Positions 4,742 through 35,870 of a stretch of 35,998 nt of DNA are shown piece by piece. Position 1 is the stretch's first letter. Every line of letters begins with the position of its first letter. Location of the stretch: positions 1 to 35,998 of the forward strand of contig WOVA01000023.1 in the NCBI GenBank assembly GCA_009773155.1, in the 5' to 3' direction. The translations under genes were made by a program, and so were the position numbers. The stretch comes from Elusimicrobiota bacterium. Lineage in GTDB: Bacteria; Elusimicrobiota; Elusimicrobia; Elusimicrobiales; UBA9959. The notes under the pieces are model-generated. The model saw only the letters and a program-made list of their open reading frames with translations. It had not been told where the DNA came from and did not search any database.

Positions 4742-4846
4742 GGGGACGTTGTTTAGTTCTTTAGTGGTTATTAATAATTTCACGGTTCCATCCCGGTTTT
4801 TGAGCACTCTGGGCGAAAAGAAACTAAAGAACTAAACAACGTCCCC
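4742..4846. mobile_element. MITE-like element with perfect 24-bp terminal inverted repeats
   Basis: Positions 4742-4765 (starting GGGGACGTTG) are the exact reverse complement of 4823-4846 (ending CAACGTCCCC). The 57-bp centre is AT-richer and contains no gene. The whole unit is about 105 bp. Perfect arms of this length around a short non-coding core fit a miniature inverted-repeat element, possibly mobilised by a Y1/REP-type transposase encoded elsewhere; that enzyme link is inference. It sits between the divergent tolC-like and clostripain genes. An obvious short target-site duplication is not seen at its ends. Confidence 0.72.
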
Positions 4847-17207: not shown

Positions 17208-17420
17208 ATTGTCCCCGCCTTCTTCCCGGTTTCGGCAGCCCGTCCGGCATCGAGACCCGGTCTCATTAGCCCCGCAGCTTTGCGTTCCCGGCCTTTCGGC
17301 GAACGGGAGTGCTATTATCGTACAACGATAGCATAGCAGGCGTAGCCCTTTCCGGCAAGGCCCAGGGCCGTCAAATTTTAGTCAAATGTTTGTCAAATTA
17401 ATGTGATATATTAGTCCTTA
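17208..17420. promoter_or_regulatory. Divergent control region with phased GTCAAAT repeats
   Basis: This region separates the two surface-protein transcripts. GTCAAAT occurs three times at 17370, 17381 and 17392, exactly 11 bp apart (one helical turn), just upstream of the rightward gene. An inverted repeat TATCGT-ACA-ACGATA lies at 17316-17330. A -10-like TATATT at 17407-17412 ends only 8 bp before the ATG at 17421, where no ribosome site is visible, so the mRNA may be leaderless. Phased repeats suggest binding of a regulator on one face of the DNA. Confidence 0.5.
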
Positions 17421-23927: not shown

Positions 23928-24281
23928 ATGAACAACGAAAATCCCAATCCCAGCACATCAGCGAGGGACACCATGCCGCATGGTGTCCCGGTACAATCCG
24001 CCCCCGCGCCGGCCGGCGGCCCCGCGCGCGGCCCCGCCGCCGGTCCCCGCAGGCCCTTCGGCAGGCGTCATTTCGCCCCGCGCCGCAAGGTCTGCCGCCT
24101 CTGCGCGGAGAAGATCCACACGATAGACTTCAAGCAGTCCCAGCTGCTCAAGACCTTCTGCACCGATACCGGCAAGATCCTGTCCCGCCGCATCACCGGC
24201 GCCTGCGCCAAGCATCAGCGCCAGATAACCAGGGCCATAAAGGTCAATCGCAACCTGGCCATCATGCCCTACAAGGGCTGA
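23928..24281 (+). CDS. rpsR: 30S ribosomal protein S18 with unusual N-terminal extension
   Basis: The 117-residue protein is longer than most S18 (about 70-90). The conserved part begins near residue 44 (FGRRHFAPRRKVCRLCAEKIHTIDFKQ) and ends AIMPYKG. Four cysteines (two in CRLC, then TFCTD and GACAKH) suggest a zinc-binding form. Residues 1-43 are a low-complexity extension. Within it, residues 13-21 (RDTMPHGVP) are encoded by a 25-bp palindrome (23965-23989) that also occurs in cysS. The ribosome site GAGG before 23928 supports this start. The tail probably protrudes from the ribosome and tolerates insertion. Confidence 0.95.
   Translation: MNNENPNPSTSARDTMPHGVPVQSAPAPAGGPARGPAAGPRRPFGRRHFAPRRKVCRLCAEKIHTIDFKQSQLLKTFCTDTGKILSRRITGACAKHQRQITRAIKVNRNLAIMPYKG
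23965..23989. repeat. REP-like palindrome inside rpsR
   Basis: GGGACACCATGC (23965-23976) and GCATGGTGTCCC (23978-23989) form a perfect 12-bp inverted repeat around one central base. It is read in frame as DTMPHGVP in the S18 extension. A related, longer copy lies in cysS at 35213-35290 and gives the same DTMP and PHGVP peptides. Confidence 0.8.
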
Positions 24282-33779: not shown

Positions 33780-34181
33780 ATGAAGACCTTCGCTATGTGC
33801 GGCATGGTTTCCGCCGCGGCGCTGGCCGCCTTGCTGGCGGCCTGCGCCCAGCCGCGCCAGGCCGGCGAGGCCGCTCCTTCATCCGATCTGGCTGTGACCG
33901 TGGAGACGCGGGAGTACGCCGTGACCCCGGCGCACGATCAGGAGCGCGAGGACGCTTTCATGGCCGTGCTGGCCGCCGCGGGCGACCAGGCCTCGCTCGG
34001 CGCCGGCATGGACACCGGCTTCAATTACACGCTCAAGCCCGCCGGGGCGATCTATCCCTTCTCGAAAGTCGAGATAAGCTGCCGCGTGCGCGGACGCTAC
34101 GCCGCCGGGCAGGGGAAGAAGTCCTGCTCGGAATTTTTCTCGGTGCTCGACGCGAAGCTCGGAAAAAAGGGCTTTAGATGA
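33780..34181 (+). CDS. Small lipoprotein, unknown function
   Basis: The 133-residue product has a lipoprotein signal with lipobox LLAAC (about residues 18-22), so it is lipid-anchored. The mature part (about 111 residues) has two more cysteines (ISCRVRGRY and KKSCSEFFSVLD), which may pair, and a beta-rich look. I recognise no family. It lies 7 bp after ispDF and overlaps cysS by 4 bp, so it is translated with housekeeping genes, but nothing links it to their function. Confidence 0.75.
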   Translation: MKTFAMCGMVSAAALAALLAACAQPRQAGEAAPSSDLAVTVETREYAVTPAHDQEREDAFMAVLAAAGDQASLGAGMDTGFNYTLKPAGAIYPFSKVEISCRVRGRYAAGQGKKSCSEFFSVLDAKLGKKGFR

Positions 34182-35647
34182 AGATATACAACACGCTCAC
34201 CCGCCGGAAAGAGGAATTCAGGCCGATAAAAGAGGGAGAGGCCGGCATCTACACCTGCGGCCCCACCGTCTACAATTACGCCCATATCGGCAATATGCGC
34301 ACTTTCATCACCGAAGACCTGCAGGTGCGCGCCCTGCGCTTCCTGGGCTGGAAGGTCAGGCGCGTAATGAATATCACCGACGTCGGCCACCTGGTCTCCG
34401 ACGCCGACACCGGCGAGGACAAGATGGAGCAGGGCGCCCGCCGCGAGGGCAAGAGCGCCTGGGATATCGCCAGGTTCTACACCGACGCTTTCTTCAAAGA
34501 TTTTAAAGCCCTGAACTGCGCGGACCCCGACGTGGTCTGTAAGGCCACGGACTACATAAAAGAGATGATCGACCTCGGCCTGACGCTGGAGAAGAAAGGC
34601 TACACCTACGTCATCCCCGGCGACGGCGTCTATTTCGATACCGCCAGATTCCCCGATTACGGCAAGCTGGCGGGCAAACGCCACATCGAGGGCATACAGG
34701 AAGGCGCGCGCATAGAGGCCAACGAGGGCAAGCGCAATCCCACCGATTTCGCCGTCTGGAAATTCTCCGCCCCGGGCGGGAAACGCCAGATGGAATGGGA
34801 CTCCCCGTGGGGGAAAGGCTTCCCGGGCTGGCACATGGAGTGCTCGGCCATGGCGATGAAGCACCTCGGCGAGACCATAGACATGCACTGGGGCGGCGAG
34901 GACCATGTCGCCATCCACCATACCAACGAGATAGCCCAGAGCGAGGCCGCCACCGGCAAGCCCTTCGCCAATTACTGGCTGCACGCCAGGTTCCTGGTCA
35001 CCGGCGACACCGGCAAGATGTCCAAGTCGTCCGGCGAGTTCCTCACCACCGGCCTGCTGATCAAAAAGGGTTACGACCCGTTGGCTTACCGCTATTACTG
35101 CCTGCTCACCCATTACCGCAAGCAGCTCGAGTTCACCTGGGAAGGGCTGGACGCCGCCGCCAGGGGCCTCGAGCGCCTGCGCGAAGCCGCCCGCCGGCTG
35201 GCCGCGGGAGAAGGGGACACCATGCCGGAACAGGGCGGCATTGTCCGCAGTCGGTGCCGGGAGCTCTGCGACCGGCCGCATGGCGTCCCCTCGTCCCCCG
35301 CCGCCAAATATCTGGCCGATTTCAAAGCCGCGCTGGAAGACGATCTCAATATCCCGCAGGCCCTGGCCTGCGCCTGGGAGGCCGCCCGCAACGAGGCCTT
35401 GCCCGCCGGCGAGCGGCTAGCCTTCCTCAAGGAAGCCGACAAAGTCCTGGGCCTGGACCTCTTCGCCGCGCCCAAAGCCGAGGCGGACCTGGAGCCTGAA
35501 CTGATGGCGCTGGTGGAAGCGCGCGCCGCCGCCCGCAAGGCGAAGGACTTTAAACGCTCGGACGAGCTCCGGGCCGAGCTGGCGGCCAAAGGCGTGCTCG
35601 TGGAAGACACCTCCGGCGGCCAGAAGTGGAAGCGCAAGGCCGGTTGA
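34178..35647 (+). CDS. cysS: Cysteinyl-tRNA synthetase with repeat-derived insertion
   Basis: The 489-residue class I enzyme charges tRNA-Cys. It has the HIGH-type motif HIGN (36-39), KMSKS (280-284) and the zinc ligands Cys27, Cys222, His247 and Glu251 that select cysteine. The C-terminal helical domain begins near 315. Residues 346-371 (GDTMPEQGGIVRSR onward, ending PHGVP) are encoded by a 78-bp repeat (35213-35290), an exact 26 codons. It falls in the linker between two helices, where other CysRS have a short variable loop, so activity is probably kept. The gene overlaps the lipoprotein gene by ATGA and ends 43 bp before tRNA-Gly. Confidence 0.95.
   Translation: MKIYNTLTRRKEEFRPIKEGEAGIYTCGPTVYNYAHIGNMRTFITEDLQVRALRFLGWKVRRVMNITDVGHLVSDADTGEDKMEQGARREGKSAWDIARFYTDAFFKDFKALNCADPDVVCKATDYIKEMIDLGLTLEKKGYTYVIPGDGVYFDTARFPDYGKLAGKRHIEGIQEGARIEANEGKRNPTDFAVWKFSAPGGKRQMEWDSPWGKGFPGWHMECSAMAMKHLGETIDMHWGGEDHVAIHHTNEIAQSEAATGKPFANYWLHARFLVTGDTGKMSKSSGEFLTTGLLIKKGYDPLAYRYYCLLTHYRKQLEFTWEGLDAAARGLERLREAARRLAAGEGDTMPEQGGIVRSRCRELCDRPHGVPSSPAAKYLADFKAALEDDLNIPQALACAWEAARNEALPAGERLAFLKEADKVLGLDLFAAPKAEADLEPELMALVEARAAARKAKDFKRSDELRAELAAKGVLVEDTSGGQKWKRKAG
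35213..35290. repeat. REP-like inverted-repeat element inside cysS
   Basis: GGGGACACCATGC (35213-35225) pairs with GCATGGCGTCCCC (35278-35290) with one mismatch. The 52-bp centre includes an inner CGGCA/TGCCG pair. The whole is 78 bp, a multiple of three, and is read through without a stop. The ends match the rpsR palindrome. Confidence 0.75.
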
Positions 35648-35690: not shown

Positions 35691-35764
35691 GCGGGCGTGG
35701 TTCAATGGTAGAACGGGACCTTGCCAAGGTTCAGACGAGGGTTCGATTCCCTTCGCCCGCTCCA
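35691..35764 (+). tRNA. tRNA-Gly (anticodon GCC)
   Basis: A complete cloverleaf is visible. The acceptor GCGGGCG/CGCCCGC is followed by a D arm GTTC/GAAC, an anticodon stem GGACC/GGTTC with loop TTGCCAA (anticodon GCC, reads GGC/GGT), and a T arm GAGGG/CCCTT with loop TTCGATT. The discriminator base is T and CCA is encoded (35762-35764). It starts 43 bp after cysS. Confidence 0.96.
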
Positions 35765-35771
35765 AAAATCT

Positions 35772-35798
35772 AACGGCTGTCTTTGGACAGCCGTTTTT
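35772..35798 (+). terminator. Terminator after tRNA-Gly
   Basis: AACGGCTGTC (35772-35781), loop TTTG, then GACAGCCGTT (35786-35795) form a perfect 10-bp stem running directly into a T-tract. Confidence 0.88.
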
Positions 35799-35803
35799 AA
35801 TTA

Positions 35804-35865
35804 CGGGCGAAGGGAATCATCTTATGAAAGAGGCTCGCTGACGCTCACATGTCGCCCGCTCCAAA
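35804..35865 (+). repeat. Inverted and direct partial copies of the tRNA-Gly 3' end
   Basis: CGGGCGAAGGGAATC (35804-35818) is the reverse complement of 15 bases of the tRNA T-arm/acceptor (35745-35759). TCGCCCGCTCCAAA (35852-35865) repeats its last 14 bases (35753-35766) directly, CCA included. The two copies can pair with each other (CGGGCGA with TCGCCCG) like an acceptor stem around a 41-nt loop. This is either a decayed tRNA-derived element or an attachment-site remnant. No gene is present. Confidence 0.65.
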
Positions 35866-35870
35866 TTTGG

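Follow-up and report, generated by a model that had tools for sequence, protein, structure and literature searches.

Palindromic repeats that reside within coding sequence are best known from Rickettsia and Wolbachia. REPINs are extragenic pairs of GTAG-type REPs. The Rickettsia palindromic elements (RPEs) and their Wolbachia counterparts form families that lie in frame in unrelated, often essential genes and also in intergenic DNA, and that are tolerated at permissive places (PMC10969869, PMC3767692). RPEs, found in Rickettsiales, are about 100-150 bp long, with RPE-4, RPE-6 and RPE-7 covering roughly 84-192 bp (PMC3767692). A further group, the TIR repeats of TIRYTs (Di Nocera et al. 2013), shares the start GGGGWSAS (PMC3733652). 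The intragenic repeats described in the TIRYT paper are of the GTAG and CGTC types; such tagged intragenic REPs occur, for example, in Opitutus terrae and in R. conorii uvrB, and in uvrA and tRNA synthetase genes (PMC3733652).

The window analysed here is a stretch of 35,998 nucleotides from an Elusimicrobiota draft assembly of 2.76 Mb in 93 contigs, and two of its essential genes, those for cysteinyl-tRNA synthetase (cysS) and ribosomal protein S18 (rpsR), carry copies of a small palindrome that we call family A. The core, GGGGACACCATGC-N-GCATGGTGTCCCC, is 27 bp or nine codons long and as RNA corresponds to a hairpin of -22 kcal/mol. The first-pass annotation had suspected a dispersed repeat, and a genome-wide search with the arm bore this out: allowing at most one mismatch, GGGGACACCATGC is found at 134 forward and 138 reverse places, 272 in all, as against one place for a reversed control pattern. 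Full palindromes number about 107 in this genome at the same threshold. When the distribution was scored over 295 Elusimicrobiota genomes, again with at most one mismatch, three congeners had 6-10 palindromes each, a member of another genus of the same family (G031) had one, and the 290 other genomes searched had none. Family A is, judging from these counts, a recent and largely species-specific expansion, since there are 107 copies here but only 6-10 per congener and a single one in G031. Whether they lie in unrelated genes or between genes, copies are nearly identical at the DNA level. In 39 copies the palindrome has an extended form of about 45 bp, with flank GCATCAGCG on one side and GTACCGTC(T) on the other, giving the layout GCATCAGCG-core-GTACCGTCT; the remaining copies are bare, and some copies stand in tandem with a 30-bp period. 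One tandem pair lies at the 3' end of a gene on contig C18 of this genome (locus L050:2449-2511), where the second copy is in the TGA-bearing orientation; the pair supplies a new C-terminus and stop and is absent from the orthologue in the congener G002. The G031 copy (contig C37, L331:664-690, TSAGDTIRHGVPVPLP) is a single extended one, in a gene and in the same reading frame as most copies here (f0, below), and may be a trace of transfer.

The closest comparison, and the one drawn in the first-pass annotation, is with the RPEs, of which family A was called a bacterial counterpart. As an analogy this is apt: like an RPE, the family A palindrome is found in frame in many unrelated genes. The likeness does not extend to length or motif, as family A is only 27 bp (45 bp when extended) and starts with GGGGACAC; moreover, it belongs to Elusimicrobiota, and most copies are specific to the species rather than shared between orthologues. 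We do not count family A among the RPEs, from which it is set apart by its length and its host range (one genus plus the one G031 copy). It comes nearer to the TIR repeats of TIRYTs, with which it shares self-complementarity, a start that fits GGGGWSAS and the presence in the same genome of Y1/HUH transposases with GGGGAC terminal repeats. However, no Y1 transposase with family A ends (GGGGACACCATGC / GGGGACACCATG) was found at any of the 36 loci inspected, which were drawn from this genome, its congeners and part of the family's loci, and two thirds of the examined family A copies are intragenic. We place family A near these repeats because of its start, with a putative link to a transposase.

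Intragenic GTAG- and CGTC-tagged REPs are also small palindromes in genes, and uvrA and cysS carry family A here too, but family A differs from them in its near-exclusive use of a single frame and in forming a nested composite with a second family. Neither tag adjoins the stem in the consensus of the 39 extended copies (GCATCAGCG / GTACCGTCT). REPINs and other REPs mobilised by RAYTs occur in high copy number as hairpins that a Y1 transposase moves in trans, which is the mechanism we propose for family A, whereas family A is a single full palindrome that is often in genes. REPs are also predominantly extragenic, while 58 of the 88 family A copies examined are genic. What is most unusual about family A is that the majority of the examined copies are intragenic, that these keep almost entirely to one reading frame, and that two in-frame families are nested in one essential gene.

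The cysS element was initially described as 78 bp with palindromic ends and one mismatch between the arms, and both arms are indeed where they had been placed (Table 1). It had also been read as an insert of exactly 26 codons in a linker between helices. The length, the frame and the setting hold: in an AlphaFold2 model the segment is a loop with pLDDT <50 between helices 321-343 and 374-387. It is not, however, one insertion, but two nested units. Aligned with its congeners, the gene presents a series of steps, with an ordinary linker in G001, a bare 27-bp palindrome in G002 and the 78-bp element in the present genome, which is exactly 51 bp longer than the G002 form; the difference is one family B unit at the centre of the palindrome. 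The gain in CysRS is thus 17 codons relative to G002, the nearest carrier, and 24 codons net relative to G001. In an alignment of 31 CysRS sequences no other protein has the long segment, and the short form is found only in G002. With the palindrome beginning at a codon boundary, the protein reads GDTMP...PHGVP. A plasmid search with cysS gained nothing further.

Table 1. Coordinates in the window of the two host genes and of the repeat units that they carry
Feature	Positions	Strand	Details
rpsR	23928..24281	+	host gene, ribosomal protein S18
Extended form of the rpsR copy	23955..23999	+	5' flank (A)CATCAGCG, 3' flank GTACAATCC; flanks common to 38 other copies
Family A palindrome in rpsR	23964..23990	+	in frame, RDTMPHGVP
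cysS	34178..35647	+	host gene, cysteinyl-tRNA synthetase
Composite in cysS	35213..35290	+	78 bp, family A arms around a 51-bp family B unit; 26 codons, GDTMPEQGGIVRSRCRELCDRPHGVP
Left arm of family A palindrome	35213..35225	+	GGGGACACCATGC
Composite interior, family B unit	35226..35277	-	CGGCCGGTCGCAGAGCTCCCGGCACCGACTGCGGACAATGCCGCCCTG...
Right arm of family A palindrome	35278..35290	-	one mismatch, GGGGACGCCATGC

The composite, with an identical left junction, is found at four places in this genome and is absent from the congeners; among the four, one copy contains a second B unit (129 bp) and another has a degenerate far end (135 bp). Because the same left junction recurs at four places here and nowhere in the congeners, the composite was probably moved or copied as a unit, and may have entered cysS either by insertion or by exchange through its arms. 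The suggestion that the same palindrome lies in rpsR in the same phase, so that both proteins carry DTMP and PHGVP, proved right. The core match covers positions 23965-23989, is joined by the family flanks CATCAGCG / GTACAATC and belongs to a palindrome that begins on a codon boundary, in the N-terminal tail of S18, ahead of the S18 domain (residues 63-113). Orthologue alignment shows the rpsR element to be absent in both G001 and G002, and the comparison of orthologues that had been advised for the two proteins can be put briefly: G001 has neither segment, and G002 lacks the one in rpsR but has the short form in cysS. The nest of two families in cysS, and the near-exclusive use of one frame though all three are open, go beyond what had been noticed before.

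Copies were examined one by one in 823 kb of this genome chosen for holding them, so that the 88 copies there do not give densities that can be extrapolated. Gene calling, with a model trained on the long ORFs of this genome, predicted 718 genes covering 93.7% of this sequence. Some two thirds of the copies (58/88) are inside called genes, and the extragenic ones are about fivefold over-represented relative to the non-coding share. Of the 30 copies scored outside genes, a few, the rpsR copy among them, are there because a gene start was miscalled. A local codon score over 90 bp beside each copy was dropped, as codon use in linkers is atypical and the in-register antisense frame scores high; coding status was taken instead from whole-gene calls and orthologue alignment. 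Most copies are absent at the orthologous sites of G001 and G002, and some are shared with G002. The earlier claim of a mobile, REP-type family able to enter genes without breaking the frame is supported, in that the family is restricted to the genus, is mostly genic, leaves most orthologous sites empty and has 24 copies flanked on either side by protein sequence that aligns, in one frame, with the G002 orthologue. Neither of the outcomes that had been named as speaking against it came about, since the genome has more copies and orthologues are without the segments.

The genic copies keep very largely to one frame, which we call f0 and in which the peptide is GDTM[PR]HGVP. It is read by 50 of the 58, the counts over the three frames being 50 : 3 : 5 (p = 1e-16 against one third). 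At the 24 sites with an orthologue aligned on both sides, 22 copies are in f0, one in f1 and one in f2 (p = 4e-9). The bare genic copies agree, with 16 of 18 in f0 (p = 1.7e-6), and because the core is free of stops in all three reading frames, avoidance of stops cannot cause the bias of these copies. Flanked genic copies are in sense f0 in 32 of 40 cases, and of their six frames antisense f0 alone contains a stop. For congeners the frame counts rest on few loci: G002's own copies fall five in f0 and three in f1 by the gene caller, the f1 cases being in doubtful ORFs and the numbers small.

The hosts are diverse and include DnaX, an MgsA-type AAA ATPase, UvrA, FtsK, an Omp85/BamA-like protein, a MetH-like methionine synthase, a KsgA-like dimethylase, a MiaB-like radical SAM protein, a sigma factor, a MotB-like protein and a polyketide synthase. 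Within these proteins most copies are in interdomain linkers or at termini. Only 5 of 35 elements are inside Pfam domains, as against 64% of residues that are domain-covered (coverage tallied by hand), and at 22 sites the 30 residues around the element are 64% identical to G002, compared with 86% for the rest of the protein (p = 1e-6). Pro and Ala are over-represented in the flanks of the elements (Pro 12% vs 6%, Ala 21% vs 14%). Because the host linkers diverge fast, junctions with G002 are mostly not clean, and there are few clean empty sites at which a target-site duplication, the mark of DDE-type MITEs, can be checked.

We regard selection against the Cys/Trp/His peptides that the other frames would encode as the best explanation for the single frame. 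The same outcome could be reached without selection if the transposase preferred a sequence at codon boundaries in the Ala/Pro-rich linkers of this GC-rich genome, and GC-rich Ala and Pro codons do usually precede extended copies, in keeping with the Pro and Ala enrichment of the flanks. Such targeting seems unlikely to us, however: inspection revealed no evident common motif beside the flankless copies, and yet their bias is equally strong (16/18). Eight genic copies are in other frames and five elements are inside domains, and a weak dinucleotide preference could not yield about 86% in one phase. Less probable again is that GGGGACACCATG resembles a Shine-Dalgarno sequence with a start codon, in frame with the host only in f0, so that copies in other frames have been purged as internal translation starts. 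Although the sequence does read GGGG 5 nt ahead of an ATG that is in frame in f0, this ATG is intact in 7 of 8 copies in other frames as against 41 of 48 in f0, small numbers in which it is not preferentially destroyed, and the start codon is buried in the -22 kcal/mol hairpin.

The recurrence of a single peptide across many housekeeping proteins might be taken to mean that the peptides serve as modules with a function of their own, such as linkers or binding tags, and are under positive selection at the protein level. We consider this very improbable, as substitutions in f0 copies are distributed 13/13/19 over the codon positions with no clear silent excess, the G002 orthologues do without most copies, and about one third of the copies are extragenic. 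The encoded peptides are, as far as the sequences tell, probably tolerated ballast and not functional parts. Misassembly, or chance low-complexity similarity between Ala/Pro linkers, deserves a thought in a draft of 93 contigs with compositionally biased linkers, but 27-bp repeats are far shorter than reads and the copies in unrelated genes and in intergenic DNA are near-perfect matches as DNA; the sites shared with G002 and the extragenic copies refute it.

We return to selection acting on a mobile palindrome, and consider it likely that family A is a non-autonomous, GGGGWSAS-ended palindrome of TIRYT/RAYT type that has recently spread, with selection retaining mainly the insertions that lie in tolerant linkers and in one harmless frame. 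The genome encodes three Y1 transposases, each bounded by its own GGGGAC repeats, and several Y1 transposases in its relatives are likewise so bounded. We infer that family A is moved by a single-strand transposase of the HUH/Y1 (TIRYT/RAYT) type, like those that this genome encodes, and a GGGGAC-ended enzyme would then act on the hairpin in trans. Y1 transposases of the IS200/IS605 group do not duplicate the target on insertion. By this route a 27-bp insertion would be frame-neutral, which is consistent with the data, and units of 45, 78 or 129 bp would equally keep the frame; since the palindrome is free of stops in any frame, insertions into genes would not be automatically lethal. Selection would retain insertions in interdomain linkers and tails, and among these would keep the frame of the hydrophilic Gly/Pro peptide (A-S-A)-G-D-T-M-[PR]-H-G-V-P-(V-P-S) over the Cys/Trp/His frames. 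In cysS, the bare palindrome was probably present before the split from G002, and the 51-bp family B unit would have been gained at its centre in this species.

Other repeats of the genome differ in how open their frames are. Family B (CGGCCGGTCGCAGAGCTCCCGGCACCGACTGCGGACAATGCCGCCCTGATC) is about 51 bp long and is found at 57 places with at most three mismatches; its tandem copies are 51 bp, or 17 codons, apart, several frames are used, and 24 of 28 examined copies are in genes. Matches by tblastn were also seen in G007, a member of another genus, and these suggest that family B is older or wider than family A. Among the other GGGGAC palindromes of the genome, those of families D (GGGGACGTTGTTTAG) and E (GGGGACGCTGATTAC) are closed by stops in each of the six frames, and their lengths are not divisible by three; in one count only 2 of 21 D copies and none of 9 E copies were genic, compared with 52 of 79 for family A. 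The ends of family E are those of the terminal repeat of a G002 Y1 transposase (contig C41), so miniature forms of such transposons do exist here. Family C, the hairpin of the C45 transposase (GGGGACACAATACC), is open in four of six frames and yet is genic in 1 of 11 cases; openness therefore permits an intragenic habit but does not by itself cause it. In the window, positions 4742-4846 hold a family D element, a perfect inverted repeat of 24 bp (GGGGACGTTGTTTAGTTCTTTAGT) whose arms are 57 nt apart and which directly precedes the likely true start of the 3320-4807 gene; the family has about 20 places in the examined part of the genome, almost all extragenic.

An outcome familiar from Rickettsiales is now seen in another phylum, as a recent burst with near relatives that are without most copies and with sister families of differing frame-openness that have the opposite location. 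This makes testable several points left open for Rickettsia, namely whether the frame is set by insertion or by selection, how large a peptide is tolerated by an essential protein such as S18 or CysRS, and whether proteins regularly acquire linkers from mobile DNA. It is tempting, but at present somewhat speculative, to think of coding palindromes as a class of their own, free of stops in every frame, a multiple of three in length and with genes as their main habitat, in which families such as A and B nest and build the linkers of housekeeping proteins outside Rickettsiales; their freedom from stops may itself have been selected for, as a trait that allows them to reside in genes.

Two further features of the window were seen. 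On the minus strand, positions 17231-17323 hold a c-di-GMP-I riboswitch upstream of the 15027-17207 gene. At 35691-35870, a tRNA-Gly(GCC) precedes a copy of its own 3' part in inverted orientation (GGGCGAAGGGAATC near 35803) and a further CGCCCGCTCC near 35856, an arrangement that resembles a partial tRNA duplication.
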